Position numbers and translations under genes: made by a program. Shown one piece after another: positions 1 to 20,297 of a stretch of DNA of 20,297 nucleotides. Within the stretch, counting starts at the first letter, position 1. Each line of letters starts with the position of its first letter. The stretch covers positions 1 to 20,297 of the IMG/VR virus record IMGVR_UViG_3300035145_000821; one strand, 5' to 3'. The DNA is from a virus. Under the pieces are notes generated by a model. It was not told where the DNA came from. It was given only the letters and a program-made list of their open reading frames with translations, and made no database searches.

Positions 1-3000
1 CATAAGGATCCAACCACATTCTGTCACCATTAACATGCAAAGTCTGTTCGACTTGCTGAGAAGTCATTGTAGATCCTTCAATTTGCATGGTGCCATTTAC
101 ATGAAGGGTATACTGAGGATCTGCTCTGTTAATACCAACGTTAGACAATCTATAGATGTCATTGCCGTTAGATGCTTCAGTCCATCTTGAGGTAACAAAC
201 TCTTGGTTGTTCTGGAAGAACTGACCATTCAAGTTCATGTCACCCTGAACATTCAGGAAGTAATTACGAGCAGTGTTGTTGGTTGGGTCAGTTCCAGAAG
301 TAGAATTAGTATTAATTGAAACTCTGTTATCACCCTTAACTAATAATCCAGGAGTTCCGTTCCAAGATGTTCCACCATTGTTGGTAGATGCGGTAATCTC
401 AAATGCGTTGCTATGTCCGATCTGGTTACCAATTCTGAAGTTTCTCTGACTAGAGGCACCACGGAAGTAAATTGGAGCACCAGAGTTGTCATTGTCACTA
501 TCGATGGTTAGTGAAGTCTGGAAGAAACCAGTACCATTAACTTCAAGAGTATAATTTGGTTCGCGGTTAATACCAACACCCATCTTTCTGGATGCAAGAA
601 TGTCACCAACAACACGGAGATACAGTTCTGATTCTGTTCCTAGGAAAGTAAATCCTTCACCATAGTTGGAACTTGGTGATTGACTATCTAGATGACTATA
701 TCTAAGTGTTCCGTTTTGGGAAGTATCATTTGGTCTAGTAGTAAATCTAATTCTTGCACCATCGGTGCCACTAGCTCCACCAGATGTATTTGTTCTGACG
801 TAGATACCATCATCACCTTTAACATCTAAATTAGCAATTGGGTTAGTGCTAGCGTTAATACCAACACGATCAGTAGATACATCGACGAACAATGTGTCAC
901 TATCAACTGCGAAGTCATTAGTAACAGATAAAGTATTCTGGAATGTCGAAGCATTAGAAACTGTTAGGGAACCACCACTGATAGTGAGGTTACCAGTCAT
1001 GGTATCGCCTGCCTTCAGAACGTTTTCTGAAGCAGCACCAGTTAGAGATCCTGTGATTGTTCCAGCACTGAAGTTACCAGAACCGTCTCTCTTGACAGCA
1101 GTATTTGCAATGTTTGAAGACTGGAACTGAATGTTACCATTGTTCCAGATGGTGTTACCATTAATGGTAAATCCATTAGCGTTGATTACCTGAGCATTCA
1201 GAGTACCAGAACCATCTGTTGCATTACCACCAGTTGCTACGAGAGCAACGTTGTAGTTTGCTGCTTGTACAGAAGAGTTGAGGTAGATGCCAGGAGAAGA
1301 AGCAACGCCGTCTTTTCTGCCAAGTCTAAGGTTACCTGTACCACCATCACTTTCTAGTGTTGCAACCTGAATAGTATTGGCATCATTGATGTAATACTCA
1401 TCAAACAGTTCGTTGATTGCTGCAGTACCAATCTTAATAGCGCCACCTTGAGCAGTGAAACTACCGCTGGTCAATCTACCAGTGATGACAGTAAAATCTT
1501 CAGTTGCGTCTGCTACGTTATTTGTAGTGATATTGTCAATTGCAATCTCACCAGTGGACTGATCCTGAGCGTTGTATAGGAATACATTTGTGCCAGGAAC
1601 GAATGGTGTAGTGGTTAAGATCTTACCAGCAATATAGATGTTGTAGGAAGGATCACCATTGTAACTCTTGATTGCAATGTCATCTCTAAAGATAGAGGAA
1701 GACATGAAACCAGGAATTCTGTTATCAGAGAGTTGTCCGTAGTTGATATTACGAGCACTCTGATACCAAGTACCTTGTCTACCATCCAATCTATCAGCGT
1801 CGAGACCAGATCCAACACCGTCATTAAGAGAAGACCAGATCTTCGCCCAAGAACCGAATGCAGTAACACCTGTACCTGATCCACGGAGATACATGTTATC
1901 ATTGTCGGTGAATGCAAGTTGTCTTACACCACCCTCAGCAGTTAGACCCTGACCTTTATTTCTAATGGTCAATACAAGGTGCTGAGTTCCACCATCAAAC
2001 AGACTATCAGCGTTGTTGTTAATTGTGTTAGCAACAATACCTTCAGAGAAATTGTTTGGAGTTGGTGAGGATGTTGGGTTGTTAGTACCAGTGATTAGTT
2101 TAATGGTATCAGTAGATCTACCACTAATATCAATACTGTATGTACCACTTAGTCTATCTGGGTTGAGTGTACCAGCGTTTATGTTAGTAGCATTTCTGTA
2201 GAAAGATCCTTGTGCGCCATCGAGAAGGTCAGCGTCAAGACCTGAACCTTGACCTGTCTTCAGGGTAACAGAACCATTACCAGATACACCAATATCAAAT
2301 TGAGACTTTTTAAGTCTTACGACACCAATTGTACCAAAGAGGTCACTAGAAACAGTTAGGTCAGAAACTCTCTGAACGTCTAGAGCTACGTTTGCATACT
2401 GTCTATTAACAGTAGAAATCTTAACTGCAAGAACCAGATTAGAGCCAGGTCCAAGTGCTGCAGGAGCAGCAGTTACAGAGAAGTCTCCACCAGAGTATCC
2501 AGTACCACTATCTGTAACAGCGATAGCAGTTACTGCTCCACCAGAAACTGTAAAGTTTGCTCTCAGTCCTGTTCCGTTTACACCTGTAGGAGAATTGATA
2601 TCAACATCAAAGTATTGACCATCTGTAAATCCATTACCACCAGCTACGATAATAATGCTATCAACAAAATTACCTTGGGTGTAACTAGATTCAAATACCA
2701 TTGGAGAACCGCCACGTTCAAATTCAATGATCGTGCCAGCAGCAATGTTTTGTGTAATTGGATTGTTGAGTGAAATAGTTGTACCACCCAACTGTGCGTC
2801 AGTGATAACACCTGTGATGTTAGTATTCGCTTGGATACCAACTACAGTGTTCTTGACTTCATGACCGACAAGAACGTCAGAGTTAGTAGCAAATTCTAGT
2901 TGAGAACTACCAGAGTTTGCTTGGGATAGTAGTTTTGCAAAGTACCTTGTCTCAGATCCCTTAATAGACTGAACTGCAAGTGCAAAGTTCTGGTCACCAC

Positions 3001-6000
3001 GTAGGAATGTGAAGGAGTTTGCAGCACCACCAGATGCCAATCTATCCGTTTCAATAACACCAGAAGTAATATCTGTAGCAGCAATCTGGTTAGAAGATAG
3101 AGATACCCAGTTATTATTATTGTTAGAAGATGTGTTGACAACTCTAGTAATATCAATAGTTACTGGTGGAATATCACTACTATCAAATGTATCAGTATCT
3201 GCAATAAGAATTCTGTTTACAACATCACCATACAGTCTGCTTTCAATGAATGCAGTTGCTGTTGCTCCTGTACCAGCTCCTGAAGGACCAGCAATATTGA
3301 CAGTAGGAGCAGATGTATAACCCTTACCACCCTTGAGACCGTTGAACTCAACGATCGTAATAGTAACAACTTCTCCATTAGCGATTGTAGTTGTTGCAGC
3401 ACAAGAGATAGCACCAAGACCAGGATTACCACCAGCAAATGTAACTGCAGGTGGTGAGGTATATCCAGATCCACCATCGGTGATATTGATACGATGTACT
3501 ACACCAGTTCTATATTCAGTTGCTTGAATTCTACCACCAGAGACGCTACCAGTGAAGATGTCACCAAGAGTAAACTGAACTGTTGGATCAACATCAAATG
3601 CTAGGAACTGACTGTCTAGATCATTGTTTAGAATGAATGATGTTGATGTATCCTGTTGGATTGCAATGTCACCAGCAAGTGCGCCTTCAATAGCAAGTCT
3701 TTCTGTTTGGTTTGCAACAGTGTAGACTTCAAATGGTCTGAGTGCTGGGATTTGGTCGATAGAAATCTTACCACTATCAGTAAGTTCAACCAGTGCTCTA
3801 GGAACAGCGTTCGTGGAGTATGGTTTGTTGATGTATGGACCGAGGTTGTTAGTGATGTAATCTCTAACTGCCTTCTGAGTAGGTAGGACAGAGTTGCTAG
3901 AGTTAGCACCACCAAGTGTATTGTCAGCAGAGAAACCAGTAACAACAACGTCGCCACCTTTCAGTTTCAAGAATTCAACTTCAGAGATGGTAACCGTACC
4001 AGTAAAGGTAATCGAACCAGTTCTGTTTTCGATCTTAGCGAATGTACCAACTTTAAAGTCACCAAGTTCGTCAGTACCAGAGACATAAACACGACCGTAG
4101 TTCTCAGATACCTGCTCTCTTGATTCGTCTTTAGTACCACCGTTTTCTGGTAGTGCATTGTAAGTAGTACCAGAACCTGCAAATTCCCAAGTGTGGGAAG
4201 AAGAGTTAACAATAGATGGTCTGTGTAGTTTGATCGTAGCACCAACGATGTTTCCGATTGGAACTGGATTACCAGTAGACAGATCAGTCAGATCCATTGG
4301 TTGACCTAGACCACTATCAATGGTTAGGTCTGCACTATTGTCAACAGCAACAGGTCCAATACTATCGATAAAGTATTCAATATTTTCATCAGTATTTCTA
4401 AAACCGTCAATCTTAACGATATAGTGTTCTAGTGGTTCTCTACCAAGACCAGAGATACTAATGATTGTTCTACCAGCAGGTGTGGAAGATACATTGGCAA
4501 CAGTTCCTTGGTCAAACTCATAACACTCTCTTCTGAAACCTGTTGCTCTTAGAGCATCTAGACCAAAGTTTGTAGCAGAGTTTGTGATAGATGCATAACC
4601 ACCAGTTTCACAAAGGACACCATCAGCACAGAAAATAACGAAGACAGAAACCAACTGAGTATAACCATCTTCAATAACCTTATAACCAGTACCACCTTCA
4701 GAAACAATCGTGAAGGCAGATGCAACCATCGACTTACCCTGATTAGGGAAGGTAGCAGAACCATCAAGTTCTAGACCAGGGAAAGGACAGTTAGGTTGCT
4801 TAACTTTAGAACCATCAATCAGAGCACCACTACCACCTTTCTTGGAGATAACAGAAGAGTTCTGAGTGTATGGAGATGCTTCAATGATTGGATAGTCATC
4901 GTAGTCAGAACGAACTGCCATCCTTGTGCCAAGTTCATCCGTGATGTAACTATCAGGATAATTGATAATTGAAGCGTAATCAAATAGAGTTCCAGAATTT
5001 TTAGCTGTTGCGCCAGGAACAACTGTTCCATCTAGAATATCTTCTAGAAGTGCAAATAAAGTAGTAAGAGTTGCTTCTACATTTGCACAAGATGGATTTG
5101 CACTATCCTCAAGAATACTCCAGTCAGTAAACTGAGGGATTGGGGAAGTTGTTGCTACTGGTGCATAGATTAGTTTTGTTCCATCTGCTAGAGCAGATAC
5201 AAACGTATGTGCATCTGTATTAGATCCAGCAGCACCAACATTACAACTGATAGTAGTGCTACCACCAGAGGAAGATACATTAGTGATTAAGAAACTTTGT
5301 CCAAAGTTTGCGTCTCTTCTGTATGGACTTTCGTCATTACCACCACCAGAATGAGCACAACTGTAAGTAATTGCACCTTCAGCAAAAGCAACTCTGTCAG
5401 AGTTTGCAACAGGAGCAGTTGCAGGATCAGCAAAAGTTACTGTCAATGCTCCAGTGCTAGGATTGTAAGTAGATCCTGTTGGTGTTACAGTTCCGACGTT
5501 ACCATCAGACCAGTTACGCATTGCTGCAATTGCAAGATCTCTTACTTGCTCATATGCATAAATTGTTTGTGCTAGATAAGCAGCATCAATTCCTGTTAGT
5601 GCCGCACCTGTGAAATATGCTTCAGCAGATGTTACAGTTCCTTTGTTGCCTCCAAGGCATAGGTCTCTAACTACAGAGTTTAGAATGATACCAATATCTC
5701 TACGACATTTTCTCTCATCTACATTGGAAAGACCTAGTGCTGGATATTGTACAAGTGTATTTAAATACGCTTGATCAGCAATAAGATCTTTGTTCTTAGA
5801 AATTAGATATGCAGCATCTAGATATGTTCCAGATGTGTTGTTAGAGATGACATCTACCCAAAGATATGCTAGAGTATCAATAGCAGATCTTACATCGTCG
5901 CAAGCAGCTCCACTAGCGTTTGCAGAACCATCTGCATTTAGGAGTGCTGTAGTGTTGATAACACTAGGATCGAAGTATCTATCTAGTGTAGAATATCTTG

Positions 6001-9015: not shown

Positions 9016-9516
9016 TCACTGCCACGCGATACTGACAACCTCTGTTGATGCTGCCCATTTAATTACGTTTGTTGTTCCTGCTCTTACAGTGGTATAACTA
9101 AATTTATTCAATGCTCCCAATGGAGTGATATCCCAAGTTTGTCCATCAGGAATATCATCTTTAATTACAGTTGTCATACTTGATAAAACACTGACATTAC
9201 CACTAGCATCGGCATAAGCAACGCTTTCTATTTTCGCGGAGTATACAACACCTGTTGGGTTAACACCAATAACATGTCCAGTGATAAAACTCATCGTACT
9301 AGATGCAATAGCAATTTGAGTTCCTTGAGGATCAAGTGCTAATACAGCAGTGTTTTGTCCACGCAAAATAAAACGTCTAGTATTACTGTCAGTATATTCT
9401 GAATTTTTAATTTCTAGACTGTTAAAATCTAATCCATTCCTTAGTTCATCTACAACTACGGTCTTTCCGATAGAAAAACCACCAGTAGAATCAAACTTTT
9501 CTAATTGTGTTGCCAT
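9016..9516 (-). CDS. 166-aa beta-rich virion protein, probable structural accessory
   Basis: This is a complete ORF ending in TGA, with a second in-frame TAA two codons later. The ATG lies one base after the TAA of the 1700-aa gene, so translation is probably coupled; the only ribosome-binding candidate is a purine stretch (AAGAAG) in the last codons of that gene. The protein opens 'MATQLEKFDSTGGFSIGK' and carries 'LEIKNSEY', 'RFILRGQNTAVLALD', 'IKDDIPDGQTWDI' and a C-terminal 'TVRAGTTNVIKWA'. It is predicted to be nearly all beta strand with no signal peptide, membrane segment or Cys. I recall proteins of this pattern and length as unnamed structural genes of T4-like cyanophages. Its place between two giant fibre-like genes suggests a small connector, cap or chaperone for one of them; this is inference. 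No enzymatic motif is visible. Confidence 0.88.
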   Translation of the reverse strand: MATQLEKFDSTGGFSIGKTVVVDELRNGLDFNSLEIKNSEYTDSNTRRFILRGQNTAVLALDPQGTQIAIASSTMSFITGHVIGVNPTGVVYSAKIESVAYADASGNVSVLSSMTTVIKDDIPDGQTWDITPLGALNKFSYTTVRAGTTNVIKWAASTEVVSIAWQ

Positions 9517-9517
9517 T

Positions 9518-12500
9518 TTACTTCTTAGTGATGGTGGACGTTACAGTAATATTTACCGAATTGCTGGTGGCAACACTAGCACCAACCTCTAGGTTGAGAA
9601 TAACTGTGTTAGCACCAGAGTAGGTGAATGTAGGAATAATGAGTTGTGCTCCAGTTCTGTTGTTACCATATTCTGTATGATAAACATCAGAACCATTGTC
9701 AATGACACCAAATTCAATGAACTCTTTATCACCCGATGTTGGGTTTTCTGCAATAACAATGGTTTTACAACCTGCTTCAAGCGCAGTAGAGTACAAAGTA
9801 GAACTTACATTATCAACAGTGTCTTTGATAAGAGTTAGTTTCTCTGTTAGAATTCTAACATCAGAAAGTTCAAACTCTTTGAGATCTCCATCAAAAATCT
9901 TGACACCTTGGAAATTACCATTACCAAAGTTTGTATTGAAATACACATCACCTTGGTTGTCAAGTCTTAGGACAGGATCAACATTCAATCCACCAGATAG
10001 ACCTAGATCAAAATACTGCTTACTTGTATGTAAGAAAGTTCTATCTGCTGCAGTGTTATCTAGTGTTGTTGCTGCCTGATCAATAGTTAACAATGATGCA
10101 GTAATTTCAAATTCATCTGTTGTCACAGATCTCAGTGTATCTACACTGTAGAAATCAAGTGCTGTAGTCGTTAACTGTAATGTATTGTTGTTGTCATTGT
10201 AGAAATACAGAATATTTTCATTCTGACCAGGAGCAGTTTCTGGAACAATATATGTGTTGCCATCAACGTCTCTGACACCACCAAGACTTGTCCAGTCAGC
10301 ACCGTTATAACCTTCAAATTGTGTATCAGTTGTATTATATCTGACAGCACCAATTTGTGCGGTTCCTCTATCAGTAGTTCCACCAGAAGGAATAACGATA
10401 GATGTTAGAGCATCAACAATAAGTCTCTTACCTAGATTAGGTCTTAAGACTAGATCACTAATGTCAGTTCCAACAACGTTGTCTTTTAGTCTGAGATCAG
10501 AGTTAATAACAAGATCTGTTGGACTTGAAGGACCAATTCTTAGTTCGTCAATATCTTCAAACGTTAGTGGTCCAACAGCAGATCCCCAGAAAGTTAGTTC
10601 TGCGCTACCATTGTTTACTGCACCAGACGTATGAATTGGTTCGTTACCAGAGGTTCCTGTAGTACCTGCTGCAGTTACTTCATACAGATAGTTCTTCCAC
10701 TTGAGATATGCACCAACTAGTACAGGTGTATTAGAAGTCCAATCTACAAAGTTTGGAGCAGTAGTGTTTGCAGATCTAATTTTCTTAACTGATCTAAACT
10801 CCTGATATGCAGGAGTAAATTTGATGGTATTGATGCCATCATTGATAAACCATAAGGTGTTATCATTAGCACCAACAGTTTCTTCTGCTAGAATATAAGT
10901 GTTGCCATCTAGGTCACGAACACCACCAAGAGAAGACCACGTAGTTGTGGTGTTTGAATAACCCTCATATTGGTTAGTTGTTGTATTAAATCTGATAGTA
11001 CCATCAGTAACTACACCTGCAATTGGTCTGTCTGTTGTAGGACCAGAAGGAATTGTCAAACCACAAACACCATTGATCTTAGCAACTCTAGTTGCTGCTG
11101 GTGTAAGTTCTAGGTCCGTTGAAGTTGCAGAACTAATAACATTGTTCTGAACAAACAACAGATCATTAGAGTTAAATTGATTTGTAGTCTTGATATTTCC
11201 GCTAGTAGTAATATCACCAGCAGCGTTATCAATTTGAATGGTGGTTCCAATGTTTACATTCGCGTTGACAGCAAATGTGGTTGCTGCCAAAGTAATATTA
11301 TTATCTCCTGCAGAAGAAGTAATGCTTGATAATGCAGCACTTGTGGTTTCTATAGCAGTAGCAGTTAATTGATTTCCTACAGTAACATCGGTGATGTTTG
11401 CGCTAGTTCCTGTTAGACTGAGAGCGTTTAGAATTCCATCAGCAATAGATCCTGAAACAACATCAGTAGTATCAAGAACAGCAACTCTTGCCGAGAAACC
11501 ACTACCAAAAACTTTAGGATTATTTTGATTAATAGTAATAGTTGCTTCTACACTATCTTCTCCACCAAGATCTTCTGTACCTAGAGAATCGTAATAGTAT
11601 AGAGTTGGTGTATTGTCAGCAGGTTTGATAGTAACACTACCAACACCAAAAGTAACACCATCAACATAAGATGTTCCTTGGAATGTTAGTACAATAGCAC
11701 CAGCAGCAAGAGGAACTTTAGATAGAGTTAATGTAGTAGCATTATCTACACTTAGAACAGTAGTTCCTGGAATTAACTGACCGCCAGTATTTGATACTTC
11801 AATGATTGTCATTCCAGCGAGAATACCCGCTGTGCTTGCAACTGTAATCTGAGCAGTGCCAGTGCTTAATGTAGTAGCAATATTTGGTACTAGACTTGGT
11901 TCATTTGTACCATCTCTGAATGCAGAGAATGCAAAAGCGTGTGGTGCAAGAGAAGTATCACTGGTATCAAAAGTATATGTTGATCCGCTGTATAGTGTAA
12001 GATTTGGTGTTAGTTGAGCGCCAGAACCAGTATCAATAAAGTAACGTGACAATACAGCACTTGCAACATCTACAGTGTATGGTGTAGGAGTTCCTGTTGC
12101 TGGAACAATGACGGCATTAGTTAGAATACCACCAGAATCTACTAAAATCGATACCGTGTATCCACCTGCCTCAACTACCTCTGCAATTTCAAGATCTGTA
12201 GAACCAGTTACACTATCAACATTGACTGTTAAGTTATCTGTTGGTGCAGCACCACCAACTGCGGTTCCAAGAATAGTTAATTGGTCTGCATCCTGATAAT
12301 TAAATCCACCACCATTATTTGTAATAGTAATAGAAATTACATCACCATTCGCATCTCTAACAACATCAAAAGTTGCACCACTACCATTTCCACCAGAGTG
12401 AGAAACGTTGTTGTATGTTTGACTTGCTTGACCTGCTAGTGTGGTTCCCGAGACAAGAGATGCAGCAGTGATAGATCCTGCTCTTTCTTTTACAGATGCA

Positions 12501-14620
12501 CCTACAGTGAAAATACCATCGTTATATGTTGAGGATGCAAAAGTAAGACGTTGTAAAGTTTTTGCAGTTACAGTATATGTAATTGGTTGTACTAAATCTG
12601 TTGGATCAACAGATAGAACATCTTCTAGTGTATAACCAATACCACCATCTGATAGACTGAAACTATCAACAACACCAAGATTACCAACTGTGTAGACTAG
12701 ATCTGTGGTTGGTGTGCCATATGGAGGAGTAAAACTTAATGTAGCACTACCTGCTGTTGTCGGTTGACCTGATAGTAAAAGGGTAGTAGCATCAATAACA
12801 GAAGATACAGTAACGTCCGTTCCTAGTACACCTGTACCAGCAGTTTGAGTAACAACAGATCCAGGCGAAATACCTGTGGTGCTAGAAACAGTGATCTCGT
12901 CAACTGCGCCAACTGATCTAAACTCAAGAGTAGCAGCACCATCTCCAACAGGATTATCGGATAGAACAATAGTTGTAGCGTTGGTTACAGAGGCAACCGT
13001 AGTATTTGGGAATAGAGCACCAACATCATTGACATCTTGGTAAACTTCCATTCCAGCAACAATACCTGCGCTGCTAGCAACAGTAATTGTTGCAGTTGCT
13101 GTGCTAAGAGTAGTAGAAATATTCTGTACAATACTCTTAAGAGTTGTAGTAACACCTGTTACTGGGAATGGTAGTCCAATTTCATCTCCTGTTGCATATC
13201 CACTTCCTTTTGATTGGAACAAGAAGTTGATAGGAATACCAGGATCATTATCAATGGTGAATGCAAAGTTGGATCCACCGCCATTTCCTAAATCAGAATC
13301 ATTAGCACCGAGAACTTCACCATTTCCATAACCAGATCCATTATCAGTAATAACAACACTATCAATCGTACTGTTGTATGATAGTGAAGATAGATTGAAT
13401 ACAAATCCAGATCCACCACCAGTGGTAGAAGGATCAGCAGTTACATTATCACCAGTTTTGTATCCAACACCTGCTGCAGAAAAAGCAAATGCTGTTACTA
13501 CGCCTCCAGCGTCCACTGTGACATCAGCGAGAGCAAATCTACCAAATGTACCACCAGCACCTGTTCCTACGTTCAGTACCGCTTCCATGCCCGTATGGGA
13601 GACGCAGTAGTATTCGTAAGCACCAGATCCTGCAACATCAGTAATGATAAGATCTACAAAACCACCAGCAGATCCATAGTTGCCACTTTGAAGGGTAATA
13701 AATTCTGCACCAATAAATCCACCACCAGTTAATTGGAAACCAAGCTGATGGGATGCCATCGTAGAATCAGAAACATCAAATCTATATGTGTTTCCTTTTA
13801 CTAAGTTTAGAGTTGCATCAGCAACACCATCCATCAAGAAGTTAGTTGTACCATTTGCGGTAACAACAAACGTTTGTGTTGGAACGTTAAAAACAGCAAC
13901 GTTACTATAAACACCTGTGGTATAACCAGTACCAGCGTTACTAATACTACCAGTAATAACAGTGTCACCACTAATTGTGATGTCTGCTTCTGCTCCTGTA
14001 CCATTTCCGCCAGTAAGAGGAACAGAAGTATATGCTCCTGGTTTGTATCCTGTACCAGCATTTGTAATAGAACCAGTAATTCCTGGCACTTCAAAGTCTA
14101 CAGTAGCACCTGATCCAGTTCCACTAATAGTTCTAGTAACAATACCAGTGAATACGCCAGCGGAATATCCAGCACCAGCGGATAGTGTACCGTCAAATTC
14201 TGTAACAATAAAATCACCAACAGCAGCAGATCCAGATCCTCCTGTTAGGAGAACACCAGTGTAAGATCCAGCGTCATAATTTGATCCAAAATTTAAGAAC
14301 GTAATGCCATTAGCAGCAACTTTCTCTTGTCTTACAGCAAAGTTCTTATAGAAAAGTAAATTCTCACTGGTAATGTCGAGTAGTTTTTTACTAGACGCGA
14401 CATATCCAATAGTAGATGCACGTGGTTTGTAGAAACCGAGCGTATTGTCAGTATCAAATGCTAGAGATGGTGCCCCCTGAGTGCCATCTCCTAACTTGAT
14501 ATTACCTGCTGCGAGGTCACTACCACCTGATGTGACGTTAAATATTTGAGTACCGATCTGATTAATTTTCTGCCTTTGAGTTTCAAAGGTATCGGTTCTT
14601 GCTACATTAATTGCTGGCAT
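9518..14620 (-). CDS. 1700-aa modular virion structural/fibre protein with cupredoxin-like domains
   Basis: This is a complete ORF whose ATG overlaps the end of the 68-aa gene by 14 nt, with a GAGAG about 10 nt upstream. The N-terminus ('ETQRQKINQIGTQIFNV', 'NIKLGDGTQGAPSLAFDTDN', to about residue 105) resembles the head of cyanophage virion proteins. Next come Gly-rich GxGY repeats (about 112-243), a cupredoxin-like domain with H291/C339/H342/M345, more GxGY repeats (about 360-485), two ITVAS modules (about 499-632), further GxGY units (about 645-800), and a degenerate cupredoxin-like copy split by a third ITVAS module (about 849-1040). A diverged tandem pair of 'SLGGVRD.DGNTYI' units follows (about 1149-1505), then a beta-rich C-terminal domain (about 1575-1700; 'CKTIVIAENPTSGDKEFIEF'). 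No peptidase or S74 signature is visible. It is probably an elongated tail appendage or capsid/baseplate decoration; exact location unknown. Confidence 0.93.
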   Translation of the reverse strand: MPAINVARTDTFETQRQKINQIGTQIFNVTSGGSDLAAGNIKLGDGTQGAPSLAFDTDNTLGFYKPRASTIGYVASSKKLLDITSENLLFYKNFAVRQEKVAANGITFLNFGSNYDAGSYTGVLLTGGSGSAAVGDFIVTEFDGTLSAGAGYSAGVFTGIVTRTISGTGSGATVDFEVPGITGSITNAGTGYKPGAYTSVPLTGGNGTGAEADITISGDTVITGSISNAGTGYTTGVYSNVAVFNVPTQTFVVTANGTTNFLMDGVADATLNLVKGNTYRFDVSDSTMASHQLGFQLTGGGFIGAEFITLQSGNYGSAGGFVDLIITDVAGSGAYEYYCVSHTGMEAVLNVGTGAGGTFGRFALADVTVDAGGVVTAFAFSAAGVGYKTGDNVTADPSTTGGGSGFVFNLSSLSYNSTIDSVVITDNGSGYGNGEVLGANDSDLGNGGGSNFAFTIDNDPGIPINFLFQSKGSGYATGDEIGLPFPVTGVTTTLKSIVQNISTTLSTATATITVASSAGIVAGMEVYQDVNDVGALFPNTTVASVTNATTIVLSDNPVGDGAATLEFRSVGAVDEITVSSTTGISPGSVVTQTAGTGVLGTDVTVSSVIDATTLLLSGQPTTAGSATLSFTPPYGTPTTDLVYTVGNLGVVDSFSLSDGGIGYTLEDVLSVDPTDLVQPITYTVTAKTLQRLTFASSTYNDGIFTVGASVKERAGSITAASLVSGTTLAGQASQTYNNVSHSGGNGSGATFDVVRDANGDVISITITNNGGGFNYQDADQLTILGTAVGGAAPTDNLTVNVDSVTGSTDLEIAEVVEAGGYTVSILVDSGGILTNAVIVPATGTPTPYTVDVASAVLSRYFIDTGSGAQLTPNLTLYSGSTYTFDTSDTSLAPHAFAFSAFRDGTNEPSLVPNIATTLSTGTAQITVASTAGILAGMTIIEVSNTGGQLIPGTTVLSVDNATTLTLSKVPLAAGAIVLTFQGTSYVDGVTFGVGSVTIKPADNTPTLYYYDSLGTEDLGGEDSVEATITINQNNPKVFGSGFSARVAVLDTTDVVSGSIADGILNALSLTGTSANITDVTVGNQLTATAIETTSAALSSITSSAGDNNITLAATTFAVNANVNIGTTIQIDNAAGDITTSGNIKTTNQFNSNDLLFVQNNVISSATSTDLELTPAATRVAKINGVCGLTIPSGPTTDRPIAGVVTDGTIRFNTTTNQYEGYSNTTTTWSSLGGVRDLDGNTYILAEETVGANDNTLWFINDGINTIKFTPAYQEFRSVKKIRSANTTAPNFVDWTSNTPVLVGAYLKWKNYLYEVTAAGTTGTSGNEPIHTSGAVNNGSAELTFWGSAVGPLTFEDIDELRIGPSSPTDLVINSDLRLKDNVVGTDISDLVLRPNLGKRLIVDALTSIVIPSGGTTDRGTAQIGAVRYNTTDTQFEGYNGADWTSLGGVRDVDGNTYIVPETAPGQNENILYFYNDNNNTLQLTTTALDFYSVDTLRSVTTDEFEITASLLTIDQAATTLDNTAADRTFLHTSKQYFDLGLSGGLNVDPVLRLDNQGDVYFNTNFGNGNFQGVKIFDGDLKEFELSDVRILTEKLTLIKDTVDNVSSTLYSTALEAGCKTIVIAENPTSGDKEFIEFGVIDNGSDVYHTEYGNNRTGAQLIIPTFTYSGANTVILNLEVGASVATSNSVNITVTSTITKK
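10115..11175 (-). repeat. Diverged tandem duplication, LGGVRD.DGNTYI units
   Basis: Unit 1 covers residues about 1149-1370 and unit 2 about 1371-1505 of the 1700-aa protein. Shared landmarks in order are 'NDLLFVQNNV'/'SDLRLKDNVV', 'IPSG.TTDR', 'R.NTT..Q.EGY', 'W.SLGGVRD.DGNTYI', 'F.ND..NT' and 'SV...RS'. Unit 1 also carries an extra segment (about 1296-1350) with 'LYEVTAAGTTGTSGNEPIHT' that unit 2 lacks. The copies are too diverged to be a recent DNA duplication. Confidence 0.7.
11500..12078 (-). other. Cupredoxin-like domain, copy 2, degenerate and interrupted
   Basis: These are residues about 849-1040 of the 1700-aa protein. 'GSTYTFDTSDTSLAPHAFAFS' parallels copy 1 and keeps the first His (H894). 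About 70 residues of an ITVAS module follow before the domain resumes at 'TFGVGSVTIK' and 'TPTLYYYDSLG'. The position of the ligand Cys is Asp (D1011), and no His or Met follows at the expected spacing. The copper site is therefore lost, though the beta fold may persist. Confidence 0.5.
11684..11885 (-). repeat. Third ITVAS module, nested in another domain
   Basis: Residues about 913-980 of the 1700-aa protein ('ITVASTAGILAGM' ... 'NATTLTLSKVPL') closely match the unit starting near residue 499 ('ITVASSAGIVAGM' ... 'NATTIVLSDNPV'). Both are preceded by 'NI.TTLST.TA'. This copy separates the two halves of the degenerate cupredoxin-like domain. Confidence 0.6.
12725..13127 (-). repeat. Two tandem ITVAS beta modules
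   Basis: Two units of about 65 residues lie at about 499-566 and 572-632 of the 1700-aa protein. Each reads ITV.S..GI..G..V, then a TTV/VTV strand, then an ATT..LS turn and an ATL.F end. They match a third unit at about 913-980 that sits inside the second cupredoxin-like copy. Similarity is clear in protein, while codons have diverged. Confidence 0.6.
13160..14290 (-). repeat. Cluster of GxGY repeats in the 1700-aa protein
   Basis: Repeated units read about I.N.GTGY..G.Y..V.LTGG.G.GA.A...I. Clear copies lie near residues 155, 190, 230, 386, 429 and 474, with the copper-site domain between the third and fourth. Further diverged copies lie near 664 and 772, left of this span. They are Gly/Thr-rich beta hairpins typical of extended virion proteins. 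Confidence 0.65.
13565..13882 (-). other. Cupredoxin-like domain, copy 1, with intact potential copper site
   Basis: These are residues about 247-352 of the 1700-aa protein. The pattern is a beta strand with 'GNTYRFDVSD', then 'SHQLGF' (H291), a variable Gly-rich stretch, and 'YEYYCVSHTGMEAVLNV' (C339, H342, M345). His...Cys-x2-His-x2-Met is the type-1 copper ligand pattern with amicyanin-like loop spacing. I recall related 'HPF.FS ... YYYC..HSGMGG' domains in other marine phage virion proteins. Copper binding itself is not established. Confidence 0.6.
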
Positions 14621-14813
14621 TTTTTACTAACTCTCGTAGTAGGGATTTGATCTCAGAGATTTCATTCTTCAACATATTTATGTCATCTAACGCGGAACTT
14701 AGCTGCTTGGATTTACGCCTAGCAGCTATAGCAGAATCGTCAAGATTAATGATGGCACCTGTGGTCTCATCTCTGACGAGACCATCATGCCCTTCAACTT
14801 TAATATAACCCAT
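14607..14813 (-). CDS. 68-aa coiled-coil structural-operon protein
   Basis: This is a complete small ORF. The N-terminal half ('MGYIKVEGHDGLVRDETTG', 'AIINLDDSAIAARRK') matches a short protein type I recall beside structural genes of T4-like cyanophages, with the pattern IKVEGH..LVRD..T.AIIN. The C-terminal half ('LDDINMLKNEISEIKSLLREL') has hydrophobic heptad spacing typical of a parallel coiled coil, so it probably oligomerises. Its TAA overlaps the start of the 1700-aa gene by 14 nt, and its ATG lies 9 nt after the stop of the upstream giant, in the same reading frame as that giant. I see no good Shine-Dalgarno sequence, so expression probably depends on coupling or reinitiation. A role as assembly factor or small connector is inference; no function is established from sequence. 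Confidence 0.9.
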   Translation of the reverse strand: MGYIKVEGHDGLVRDETTGAIINLDDSAIAARRKSKQLSSALDDINMLKNEISEIKSLLRELVKNASN

Positions 14814-14822
14814 ACGCGGAAA

Positions 14823-17800
14823 TTAGAAGGATGCTACAGCGCGAATATCTTGTACTTTAGGAACGTATGCAGGATCCACTGTCTTCATTACAATTTTGAC
14901 TGCAAATGATGCAAATTCAGGTAGATCTGCTACACTGTACTTAAGTTCTTGATAAGAAGATTGCTTTTCAGTAACACCAGAAATAGTGTTTTCACTAGTA
15001 GCAATCTCTAGACCATCAGGAGATCCATCTTCATTAAAGTATACCCAATCAATATCCTCAAAGTTTTCTTGACTGGATGCTCCCTTAAATCTGTAAAGAA
15101 CTCTTAAGTTAGAGATATCTTTAACATTTGCTGTTAGTCTAACATCAATTGATGTGCCAGGAGAGGCAATACCAACTTCTTTAGTAACGTACTTAGCGAT
15201 AGAAGAACTATTCTTAGAGGTATCTTCTGCAACAAAGTCAATACCGTCAGTATATGTAATAGAACCAATTTCTAGATAAGAAGATTCGAGATCATCTTGA
15301 GTTGGATATTTAACAAAATCACCAACACGGAAGATGTCAGCAGTTTGTTCTGCTGTGACAGCACTTCTTACAAAATTAGCACTATCAACAATTCGTCCTG
15401 TGAAATCATCATCAATTGGTTGACTATCAACTCTTACAGTCAATTCTTGAGTTTTGTTATTCCAGATAACAGACTTACCAGTAATTTTGTTATCATAAGT
15501 TTCTAGGATAACAGCAGGATTACGAGAGGTGATTGTAGCACCATCTGCAATATCAAAGAATAGTTCAACTGGGTTAGAATCTACAGTGACTGCTGTTAGA
15601 GACGCTTGATTTCCTAGAGAAACTGTCTCTCCCTTTTGGAAGAACTGAGATGTCTTAACTCTAACGTATACAACACTACCATTTACACGAGCAATCGTTC
15701 CAGATGCTTTAGTAGTTGCACCTTTAATAGTTTGATTTGCTTGTAGTTGTGTTCCACCATTTCCAGCAAGATTAAATTGATAGACAGGGAAGAACTTAAT
15801 CTTCTGATCTCTTCTACCAAATCTATCTTCTTGACCAGATGCATTTTCAATTCTGCTAGTAGAAGTCTTAACAGTAGCACTGGAAAGATCAATAACAGGA
15901 GACAAGTGTGAAACTGTAGAAGAAAGAACCATCTTATATGTCAACGAACGATTTACACTATTAAGAGTTTCGTTAATATCAGAAGCAATCATCTTCTGGT
16001 TACTAAAGTAAGTAGGTTCGTTCAAGAAAGTTCTTTCATATTCAGACTGAGAATATGATGCGTAGTTAGTGGTTGAACTATCTACAGGAACTACGTTAGT
16101 TGTCTTGACATAGTTTTCTAGTTTTGTACCAGTGAACGACAAATAATTTACTTGTGGATACAGAGTTTCAAACTTTCTATTGTAAGAAGCATAGACAGTT
16201 GTTCCACCACCAAATGCATTGCTAGAAGCGTTTGCTGTAGATGTAATATTATAAGTATCAACACCACTATTTGAAATCTTGAATAGATTTGTGTTTAGGA
16301 TGTCTGCTGTAATACCACCAGTCTCTTGTGCAGTTCTATAGAAGACATAAGATTTTCCACTATCTTCAAAACCATGGTCTCTGTGGTTGACCTTGATAAT
16401 CTTATTGTTATTCTTGAATAGTTTAGAAGTTGCTTGAGTGTTTGCACTTGCACCAGTTTCAAATGGATTGTTCTGAACTTTCTGATATCCAAGAGAAGCG
16501 TTCTTAACAAGAAGTTCTGCTGGTCTTGTAATATCAAATTCAGCACGACGCATAGTGAATTTAAGATCTTCAAAGATATCCTCTGTCCAACTCTCAGTAT
16601 TTTGAGACTTGAATACAGAACCGAGTGCAGGTTGTGTGGTGATAACAGTGCTGGTAGCAATATCAGTCTCACCCAGTCTAGACGCCCAGAGTTTGTAGTC
16701 AGTAGAATCTGTCTCTACAACTAGAGCATACTCAGTATCATTCTGTAGATATACAGGATAGTCAAACTCAAATGGTGTTGGTGTTGTAGAAGCAGTTACT
16801 CCATCTACATCTACCGCAACGCCCATTCTTACTGCTGGTGTGTCGATCTCGATAAAGGTTTGGATTTCACATCCACCTGCACCATTACCAATACCTTTGA
16901 CAACAACAGAAGGTGCTTCTGTATATCCAAAACCAGATAGAGATACTTCAGTGTTATAAACCTTACCACCAGAAACATTTACTGTTGCCGTTGCAGTAGA
17001 ACCGCCAGGAAGTTGTGGACTTTCTAATGTTAGAATAGCACTGTCATAATTTTGACCAGGATTAGTAACTCTGATATCAGATAGTTTACCACTATCTTTT
17101 GCAATAGTAAGTTTTAGATCTGTTCCTCCTGTAGCATTTGCTAGAGTGACAGAAGGAATTACCAAGTCTTCGTTAGGGATAAATGATTTACCGTTATGGT
17201 TACTAAGAACAATAGTGTATACCTGTTCGTTTGTCAGACTATATTTACCAGATGCAGTAGCAACTAGTTCTACATTGTTCTTATCAAATACTGCTAGGAT
17301 AGGACCAGATGCAGCAGAAGAAGCACCAACTACACTTTCATCTTTGTATACAGCAACGTCACCGTTGGTATAACACTTAAGGAATGTATTTGGAGATAGA
17401 ACTTTTTCAGATCCAGGAACAACATTCTTTCCTGGTTTTTCTGCATCTACATTTGTAATATATGTCTTAACTGGAATATTGCTGCTCTTCTTACTGAAGA
17501 AGAGATCAACGCCAGTGATAAAGCATCCACCCTCTAGATTTTCTACCTTGAATGTTTGTGCTAGTGGGTTAGGTCTTACAGGATTGTCAGTGTTGCTTTC
17601 AATCAACTGAACACCTTCATTAGATTTGAATGTAGATGGTTTTGTTGATACAATGCTAGCAGGATTTTCTGGTAGAATACCTGTAGCATAATACTTGACT
17701 TCAGTGTAACTATCTACATCTGCCTTAGGAGCATTAGTAGAACTAGATGTAAATCTGAATGTCAAGGAACCAGATGTAATAGATACCTCTTCAGCATCTG

Positions 17801-20297
17801 TATCGTAAGCAACTGTATCTACATCTCCTGTCCAAGTTGCATTTTCTAGAGGTGGGTTGCCTGCTGGTACAATAATTAGACCAGATGCATTACCATATTC
17901 ATCGGTAGTAATGCCACCATTAAATGCAGATAGAGAGTTACCAGCGATACCTGTAAATCTTAAATCAGGGTTGACCCAACGATCAATGTTTCTACCCTCA
18001 AGGAAGACATACATCTTCGTGTTAGGTTTCATTCTTCTGATAACATATCTAACAGGAATGCTTCTTGCAAAGAATGATAGTGCGTTAGATACGATGTTAC
18101 CTCTTACAGTCTTAGATTGTACACCCTTACCGATGTCATTATTCTGTGGACTGATGTTAGAAGAACTTGCAACAGAAGCAGTCGCTACGGTAGTAGATGC
18201 TTGTTGAGAATTATTCTCACCAAGGGAATTGATTGAACTAAATGATGGTGATGTACCAACCCAGTTAACAACGAAAGAGTTGTGAATACTAGAGAATGCC
18301 TCTTGTGTATCCTCTTTTGCCAAGAAGATATTGAACAAACTTGTATTGGTATCTACAACTAGTGGTTCTTCAGTTTGATCATACCATTGATCGATTGATG
18401 GAGATAGTTCACCATCACCAACATATTGAAGGACAACAAATGGGTTTGGATTGATTTCTTTAGATGCTGAGGAGTTACCAAGTAAATCTAAAGAAGAATA
18501 TGGTAGAGATACGATATCATTGGTTTTCTTATAACCAGATACTGCTCTTTGATCTTCTCTAGTATTAACTTCAACTAGTTTAATGCTATCTTCTTTAGAC
18601 TGTGGACGTAGTACAGACTGCTGAGGATCAACTGCACAAATATAGTCAAGAGAAGTCAAGTTACCAACTGAATGTGCTTCAAAGTTATCAACAAAGAAAC
18701 CAGACTTAAATCTGTCTAGACCTACACTGTCCTTGACTTGCATATTCAGAGCTTGTTGCTCCAGAATGCTGAGTGTGGTATAATATTCAAGACGTTCAAT
18801 GCGTTTCTCCAGTTTACCAATATCACGCATGGTGTAGCGTCTATTGTCAACAGGGGTAATTCTTACATCTTTGCTTGTCTTAGTATATGCAGGAATATAT
18901 GCATAGAAAAGAGCAACAGCATCTTCAATTGGGTCTGGCTTTGTTGGGTTCAAAGAAGAGTTACCCTCTTTGACAATGAATTCACCTTTCTTATTGAGGA
19001 AGATACCATCAATACGATCTAGATACTGAACCTGACTGAATGAGAATGTATATTCTAATGAGGTATCAGGAGCAGGTGTGCTAGAAACAACAGCACCAGC
19101 ACCTGCGAAAGATCCTTCAGTTGTTTCTAGTAGAGACTTATCAAGGTAACCTGGAATAATAGCAGTGCTATCTACCTTAGGACGGAAATCAATTACGTTC
19201 TTGAGTTCTACGTTGCCTAGTACAGGAGAGTTGAAAGAAGGAATTTCATCTTCAGGGACACCTGCTTCATGCAAGTAACTATCAATGGTTACAAAATCAC
19301 CTTGAGATTGCTCAAAGTAATCAAATGCAATTACAAGTTGACCGATAGATGCTTCAAATCCTGGTTTGAGAACAACTCTAGAAACATCATATACAGTATC
19401 TCTTTGACCGTCATCGAATGTGTAGCGTGTAGTAACGTCTGTACCAGACACTAGGTTACCAGCAGTGTCAACTTCAGGTGGTTGAGATGGTGTGCCCTCA
19501 TAGACATACCTTAGTTTGAATACATCAGAGTAAGATAGTGTTTCGATAACTTCACTATCATAGTCATTACCTCTCAAAGGAATAACACGGTCACCAGATG
19601 CTGTGATAACAATTCTCTTATTTCTTACAGCAGTCTTAAGTCTTGGTTTTGCGTTAGATACTTCTAGAGTTGCAGTCAACTTAAGTTTAGGGAACGAACC
19701 ATTAGAAGGAATAGTTCCAAAGTAATCTGATGTTAGTTGTAGACTAATAGATCCAGAAGTAAGACCACTAGCAGTGTCAGTAGCAGATGAAATATCTACA
19801 GCGTCTTCTGGAATATAAACAATGTCACCTGCAGCAATGTCAGGTGCATCACCTGGATCAAGTACAGTAACGATATAATTTTCTTCAGTGAACCTTGCAA
19901 ATCTCTGTGTACCAAATGGCAACTGTGCAGCAAACGTAATCGTACCACCAGAGGTAGATGCTGTAGTTACAAAATCTCTACGGAAGTAATATTTGATCTT
20001 GGTATCGTCACCACCAGCAGAAATCTTTTCTACTTGCTTGCTACCTGTTGGGAACAACAGTGTACCACCGCTAGTATTTTCTGGTCTTGGTCTGAGACGG
20101 ACGATACTGGTGTTTGTTACATTGCCAGGAAGTGCCTGATCTAGATAAATTCTGGTCTTGGCAACACCTGCTGCTTGTGTAGCATATTGTACAGTTGCAC
20201 GAACAAGATTGTTATCTGCATCAGAGAACTGAACAAGGTCACCTTGCTGAACCAAAGCAGAAGCATCAGCACTGAAACTTGTAGATTCTACAAACAT
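14823..20297 (-). CDS. Giant DUF4815-type virion structural protein, N-terminus probably cut
   Basis: The frame is open for 1824 codons from the right edge to a TAA at 14825-14823. The family signatures I recognise from T4-like marine phages occur in order: 'TFDDGQRDTVYDVSRVV' (about 291-307) and 'GDFVTIDSYLH' (to about 342); a helical 'MRDIGKLEKRIERLEYYTT' coiled coil (about 486-516); 'IDQWYDQTEEPLVV' (about 633-646); 'MKPNTKMYVFLEGRNIDRWV' (about 755-774); 'NPLAQTFKVE' then 'ITGVDLFFSKKSSNIPVKT' (about 911-947); 'DTEYALVVETDSTDYKLW' (about 1186); 'FKSQNTESWT' (about 1228); 'SHLSPVIDL' (about 1460); and the C-terminal 'VPKVQDIRAVAS'. Homologues normally begin with a 'RPG.AVQARELTQLQ' region, absent here, so the edge ATG is probably internal. 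An insertion with GxGY repeats occupies about 973-1169. Probably a baseplate-proximal or tail virion component; the DUF4815 assignment is from memory. Confidence 0.92.
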   Translation of the reverse strand: MFVESTSFSADASALVQQGDLVQFSDADNNLVRATVQYATQAAGVAKTRIYLDQALPGNVTNTSIVRLRPRPENTSGGTLLFPTGSKQVEKISAGGDDTKIKYYFRRDFVTTASTSGGTITFAAQLPFGTQRFARFTEENYIVTVLDPGDAPDIAAGDIVYIPEDAVDISSATDTASGLTSGSISLQLTSDYFGTIPSNGSFPKLKLTATLEVSNAKPRLKTAVRNKRIVITASGDRVIPLRGNDYDSEVIETLSYSDVFKLRYVYEGTPSQPPEVDTAGNLVSGTDVTTRYTFDDGQRDTVYDVSRVVLKPGFEASIGQLVIAFDYFEQSQGDFVTIDSYLHEAGVPEDEIPSFNSPVLGNVELKNVIDFRPKVDSTAIIPGYLDKSLLETTEGSFAGAGAVVSSTPAPDTSLEYTFSFSQVQYLDRIDGIFLNKKGEFIVKEGNSSLNPTKPDPIEDAVALFYAYIPAYTKTSKDVRITPVDNRRYTMRDIGKLEKRIERLEYYTTLSILEQQALNMQVKDSVGLDRFKSGFFVDNFEAHSVGNLTSLDYICAVDPQQSVLRPQSKEDSIKLVEVNTREDQRAVSGYKKTNDIVSLPYSSLDLLGNSSASKEINPNPFVVLQYVGDGELSPSIDQWYDQTEEPLVVDTNTSLFNIFLAKEDTQEAFSSIHNSFVVNWVGTSPSFSSINSLGENNSQQASTTVATASVASSSNISPQNNDIGKGVQSKTVRGNIVSNALSFFARSIPVRYVIRRMKPNTKMYVFLEGRNIDRWVNPDLRFTGIAGNSLSAFNGGITTDEYGNASGLIIVPAGNPPLENATWTGDVDTVAYDTDAEEVSITSGSLTFRFTSSSTNAPKADVDSYTEVKYYATGILPENPASIVSTKPSTFKSNEGVQLIESNTDNPVRPNPLAQTFKVENLEGGCFITGVDLFFSKKSSNIPVKTYITNVDAEKPGKNVVPGSEKVLSPNTFLKCYTNGDVAVYKDESVVGASSAASGPILAVFDKNNVELVATASGKYSLTNEQVYTIVLSNHNGKSFIPNEDLVIPSVTLANATGGTDLKLTIAKDSGKLSDIRVTNPGQNYDSAILTLESPQLPGGSTATATVNVSGGKVYNTEVSLSGFGYTEAPSVVVKGIGNGAGGCEIQTFIEIDTPAVRMGVAVDVDGVTASTTPTPFEFDYPVYLQNDTEYALVVETDSTDYKLWASRLGETDIATSTVITTQPALGSVFKSQNTESWTEDIFEDLKFTMRRAEFDITRPAELLVKNASLGYQKVQNNPFETGASANTQATSKLFKNNNKIIKVNHRDHGFEDSGKSYVFYRTAQETGGITADILNTNLFKISNSGVDTYNITSTANASSNAFGGGTTVYASYNRKFETLYPQVNYLSFTGTKLENYVKTTNVVPVDSSTTNYASYSQSEYERTFLNEPTYFSNQKMIASDINETLNSVNRSLTYKMVLSSTVSHLSPVIDLSSATVKTSTSRIENASGQEDRFGRRDQKIKFFPVYQFNLAGNGGTQLQANQTIKGATTKASGTIARVNGSVVYVRVKTSQFFQKGETVSLGNQASLTAVTVDSNPVELFFDIADGATITSRNPAVILETYDNKITGKSVIWNNKTQELTVRVDSQPIDDDFTGRIVDSANFVRSAVTAEQTADIFRVGDFVKYPTQDDLESSYLEIGSITYTDGIDFVAEDTSKNSSSIAKYVTKEVGIASPGTSIDVRLTANVKDISNLRVLYRFKGASSQENFEDIDWVYFNEDGSPDGLEIATSENTISGVTEKQSSYQELKYSVADLPEFASFAVKIVMKTVDPAYVPKVQDIRAVASF
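16790..17380 (-). other. Insertion with GxGY repeats inside the DUF4815-type protein
   Basis: Residues about 973-1169 of the right-most giant lie between 'PGSEKVLSPNTF' and 'FEFDYPVYLQNDTEYALV', segments I would expect to be nearly continuous in this family. The insert contains 'RVTNPGQNYDSAILTLESP' and 'VSLSGFGYTEAPSVVVKGIG', the same module type as in the other two giant proteins. Confidence 0.5.

Follow-up and report, generated by a model that had tools for sequence, protein, structure and literature searches.

In plastocyanin, the cysteine ligand of the type-1 copper site lies at the end of a strand and is followed by a loop that bears histidine and methionine, and 47 residues separate the first histidine from the cysteine. 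Amicyanin is an electron-transfer protein with a ligand loop of the form C-x2-H-x2-M. Cyanophages carry petE, a host-derived plastocyanin gene (PMC3037559), and the tail fibre protein gp37 of T4 binds iron through HxH motifs, for which a Trojan horse idea has been reviewed (PMC11705849). Here we describe a cupredoxin domain (copy 1) of a cyanophage virion structural protein with a putative type-1-like metal site. Like petE, it is a cupredoxin encoded by cyanophages, but petE specifies a free, host-type electron carrier of the infected cell, whereas copy 1 is part of the particle and belongs to a different gene. As in gp37, a virion tail protein is predicted to hold a metal; in gp37 this is an octahedral, histidine-only iron in a fibre trimer, whereas for copy 1 a site for one copper within one folded domain is predicted.

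The window, the whole 20,297-nt stretch of DNA that was analysed, represents part of the genome of a virus related to the T4-like cyanophages. The carrier protein (Table 1) is a member of phrog_6005 by its full-length profile match and gene neighbourhood, and Syn1_099 and S-PM2p086 are orthologues. On the minus strand the genes follow the order 14823-20297 (phrog_358), 14607-14813, 9518-14620, 9016-9516 and 2-8971, which is also that of the Synechococcus phages S-H9-2, Syn1, S-RSM4 and S-PM2. The protein contains three cysteines, seven histidines and six methionines. The sequence-only reading had picked H291, C339, H342 and M345 as a copper ligand set; these residue numbers and coordinates are correct, and the amicyanin-like loop C-x2-H-x2-M and the distance of 48 residues from H291 to C339 are both present in the sequence. 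When the Cys, His and Met of the protein were scattered at random 200,000 times, the pattern H-(35..55)-C-x2-H-x2-M did not occur once. As relatives conserve all four residues, it is not a product of chance.

Table 1: Coordinates of the carrier protein, its two cupredoxin-type domains and the candidate ligands in the window.
Feature	Positions	Strand	Basis
Virion structural protein, 1,700 aa, phrog_6005, cupredoxin carrier	9518-14620	minus	ORF; full-length phrog_6005 profile match, E = 0; synteny
Copy 1, cupredoxin domain, residues 241-353, complete ligand set	13562-13900	minus	AlphaFold2; PDB fold matches; plastocyanin profile matches
H291, first candidate His ligand, directly before model strand 52-56	13748-13750	minus	Sequence, alignment, model
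C339, candidate Cys ligand, end of model strand 92-98	13604-13606	minus	Sequence, alignment, model
H342, second candidate His ligand, loop	13595-13597	minus	Sequence, alignment
M345, candidate axial Met ligand, loop	13586-13588	minus	Sequence, alignment
Copy 2, second cupredoxin-type domain, residues 844-1043, inserted module, decayed ligands	11492-12091	minus	Alignment; model pLDDT 75 (moderate)
Module inserted in copy 2, about residues 909-981, limits approximate	11678-11896	minus	Alignment with copy 1; model strands

The structure of copy 1 was predicted with AlphaFold2 from 42 homologues, giving a model of nine strands with a pLDDT of 93.4. The model is a Greek-key beta sandwich, and its top PDB matches are cupredoxins. 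In the PDB, Foldseek ranks a nitrite reductase cupredoxin domain first (2dv6, E 7e-4); mostly rusticyanin, amicyanin (1sf3), plastocyanin and multicopper oxidases follow, interspersed with other proteins, some immunoglobulin-type sandwiches among them. All matches listed by VIA-align are cupredoxin-fold proteins, with Z scores of 8.1-8.8 that are modest taken alone and an rmsd of 2.5-3.0 over 95-100 residues. In sequence and model together, the putative ligands follow the type-1 order His...Cys-x2-His-x(2-4)-Met with the cysteine ending a strand, and H342 and M345 lie in the loop that precedes model strand 106-111. The assignment to the cupredoxin fold, made at first from the letters alone, is supported by structure prediction and by the PDB fold matches. 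In BFVD, the copy 1 model has fold matches with E of about 1e-5 to 1e-4 among short beta-sandwich proteins from relatives of Pithovirus and Marseillevirus.

When its own sequence was searched directly against Pfam, NCBIfam and the PDB, copy 1 gave nothing significant. It has no match above the cut-off of PF00127 (Copper-bind), and we therefore file it as a divergent cupredoxin relative and not as a PF00127 member. Nor does it reach the cut-off of the amicyanin model TIGR02657, to which it has no match; the best relative gives E 0.03. In profile-profile comparison, the family matches Prochlorococcus plastocyanin, represented by a profile of sequences from marine cyanobacteria and other bacteria, with a probability of 92% and E 5e-7, the His, Cys and His being in register; a secreted Prochlorococcus cupredoxin is matched with 96% and E 3e-9. 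A cellular relative, L298, scores above the Pfam Copper-bind cut-off (24.7 versus 21.2 bits) and matches solved plastocyanins (E 5e-4), and a copy from a P-SSM2 fibre matches Cupredoxin_1 (E 2.8e-4). The predicted link of copy 1 to copper proteins runs through these relatives, the profiles and the fold. Copy 1 resembles plastocyanin and PF00127 in fold, in the order and spacing of His...Cys-x2-His...Met and in the Prochlorococcus profile match. It differs in having His-x2-Met in the loop, shorter than the His-x4-Met of plastocyanin, and in lying inside a 1,700-residue virion protein without signal peptide, whereas plastocyanin is a free electron carrier. With amicyanin it shares the exact C-x2-H-x2-M spacing and a fold match, but the family matches TIGR02657 weakly in sequence (E 0.03-0.11) and the phage domain has no amine dehydrogenase partner.

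The ligands are conserved among the homologues, with the second copies and the first copies of L330 and L335 as exceptions. All four are present in 46 of 55 clusters at 70% identity, the other nine being ligandless or aligned only to the loop. In sets of 42 and 46 diverse copies, picked for ligand completeness, the invariant columns are exactly the four ligands. A model that omits the loop and the His column, and so cannot favour the ligands, recovered 197 copies; C-x2-H-x2-M is present in 177 and absent in 20, with none half-way within the region examined. The expectation that the four residues would vary together holds in the copy 1 family, where ligands are kept or lost as a set, but fails for copy 1 of L335, which keeps Cys and Met and has lost both His, and for the second copies, which decay stepwise. 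A strict all-or-none rule of ligand loss was dropped for these reasons. As neither the predicted fold nor the co-conservation, each of which could have spoken against it, did so, the sequence-only interpretation is supported.

This conservation bears on two explanations that do without a metal. The cysteine could be a labile thiol for a disulphide or thioester contact, with His and Met incidental, and the protein indeed has few cysteines (3 among its 1,700 residues); as the two His and the Met are conserved exactly as the Cys is, and occupy cupredoxin ligand positions, we give this explanation hardly any weight. Alternatively, the ligands may go back to an ancestor that bound copper and today hold no metal, their sole remaining role being to stabilise the fold. 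Copies without ligands do persist with recognisable strands, among them copy 2 of the window and a fibre subfamily of the form SGRDFKLS...YYYDGG (L012-L023, L036), in which the domain has none of the ligands. Since the domain persists in such copies, fold stability alone does not require the ligands, and their being the only invariant residues in the 42 diverse copies also argues against this explanation, which we consider quite unlikely.

Copy 2 of the window has kept H894 alone, with YYYDS in place of YYYC-x2-H-x2-M, and contains an insert of about 70 residues; the insert, ITVASTAGILAGM...TTVLSVDNATTLTLS, resembles stretches around residues 510-640 of the same protein. When nine relatives were compared side by side, copy 1 was complete in all nine and copy 2 in none, the latter having decayed to differing extents (H, C and H remain in L003, H and C in L032, and none in L002). 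Relatives without copy 1 mostly retain a complete copy 2. In S-RSM4, ACG-2014e, ACG-2014j, Sf-FP1, S-RIM44, Sf-FR1, Sf-CH11, L332, L342, L343 and L345, copy 1 is absent and the insert-bearing copy 2 has the complete set; the idea that the insert destroys the copy 2 site was dropped because of these 11 orthologues. Among 27 orthologous proteins, only copy 1 is complete in 12, only copy 2 in 11, both in none and neither in four, S-PM2, S-B43, L330 and L335, where neither set is canonical. Exactly one complete set is thus found in 23 of 27, a pattern that comes down to one independent pair on well-supported branches and seven on the best tree. The tree, built from the shared C-terminal part, has eight state changes in all and weak support. 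A strong statistical claim of one set per protein was dropped, a single independent pair lying on well-supported branches. We infer that constraint is relaxed when a second site is present and that what is needed is the ligand set and not the fold. Because the ligands are conserved family-wide and the orthologues follow the pattern of one complete set, the ligand set itself appears to be under selection. Several second copies (L032, L330, L331, L335, L338, L377, L378) keep the first His and have a loop of C-x6-H, or C-x5-H in S-B43, followed by E; these are perhaps altered metal sites rather than decayed ones.

Homology, predicted fold, ligand conservation and co-loss form the computed basis of our main reading, that copy 1 is a genuine cupredoxin whose predicted metal site, type-1-like and with a short amicyanin-type loop, is intact and under selection; to this reading we assign a probability of roughly 0.7. 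That the domain binds a metal seems to us, from sequence and model, very likely. The metal would be copper, and the virus particles of these marine phages probably carry it. In the proposed mechanism, each domain would coordinate a single copper ion through two His, a Cys and a Met. A counterpoint is that nothing would bring the protein into contact with copper in the host cytoplasm; it would be made there in metal-free form and loaded with copper during lysis or in sea water. Loading after lysis is proposed because the protein has no export signal, and type-1 copper proteins usually acquire their metal outside the cytoplasm.

The domain is widespread. A tblastn search with a consensus-like family member found 749 places in 359 phage records, in line with the earlier expectation that it recurs in marine phage structural proteins, and scans of IMG/VR gave at least about 600 matches. 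By host or name, all 359 records are marine phages (of Synechococcus, Prochlorococcus, Pelagibacter and Methylophilales) or marine or uncultured, and the carrier proteins are annotated as tail fibre, baseplate wedge, gp9 connector or structural protein. The domain also occurs in unrelated podovirus fibres and in structural proteins of very large size. As a module it is mobile and of a surface type, and many tail, fibre and baseplate proteins of marine phages use it. In the T4-like cyanophages S-ShM2 and S-CAM8, gp9, which connects baseplate and tail fibre, has this cupredoxin domain with complete ligands at its C-terminus (L409:1835-2779; L037:2119-3339). In marine bacterial genomes the matches are partly phage genes in single-cell genomes and partly C-termini of lipoprotein-like proteins. 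SAR86 and Woeseiaceae proteins of the latter kind (L298, L303, L302) end in a domain of the same family with complete ligands. These three and the secreted L326, as cupredoxin-like proteins of marine bacteria, share with the phage protein the domain family and the complete ligands, here at the C-terminus of apparent lipoproteins; they differ from it in being cellular and in having a lipoprotein-like N-terminus. Secreted cellular cupredoxins from Prochlorococcus genomes (L319, L325) and from a Bacteroidetes (L326), of the form ILSGTDRNGSV...HPFYIKT...YYYVCSPH, are closely similar to the second P-SSM2 fibre domain (L035) and to an ACG-2014e protein (L395). This likeness suggests that cupredoxin domains have been exchanged between hosts and phages.

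What a bound metal would do is seen differently by two further explanations. The site could be a working redox centre in which the virion copper cycles; it might, for example, trigger tail contraction in a redox-sensitive way or accept electrons at the host surface. Electron transfer is conceivable because the loop spacing equals that of amicyanin; the type-1 set is complete, and the position at the C-terminus of gp9 would suit such a role. To our knowledge, however, the phage domain has no redox partner, and its presence in unrelated podovirus fibres and in very large structural proteins also speaks against this role, which we regard as rather unlikely. By analogy with the Ferrojan horse hypothesis for iron, virion copper could instead act as bait that engages copper-uptake receptors of the host. 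Tail fibres and gp9, in which the module sits, do face receptors, and the HxH-bound iron of T4 gp37 with its Trojan horse idea (PMC11705849) is a precedent; a type-1 site, however, buries its metal and holds it tightly, and copper bait would be a weaker rival and, in our estimate, an improbable one. In our preferred reading of a selected type-1-like site, the metal would mainly lock or rigidify an exposed tail or baseplate module, for stability or for contact with a partner or receptor, and would not chiefly be an electron carrier in a pathway. We put the chances of such a structural or contact role at about even.

A search of the open-access literature, with subscription journals and preprints outside its coverage, found no relevant paper linking cupredoxins to phage tail or virion proteins, and within that coverage the earlier remark that metal binding had gone unreported still stands. 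We tentatively propose, at somewhat less than an even chance, that the tail and baseplate proteins of cyanophage and pelagiphage virions widely bear selected type-1 copper sites, which would aid assembly, triggering or host contact and would add a virus-borne pool of marine copper. If copper is bound, an abundant group of ocean viruses would have a redox-capable metal at their points of contact with the host, a concrete and testable copper counterpart of the iron-in-phage-tails idea, with the ligandless sister copies as ready-made controls. Phage adsorption would then be tied to seawater copper chemistry, and a domain present in hundreds of phage genomes, where it is annotated only as structural protein, would have a function.
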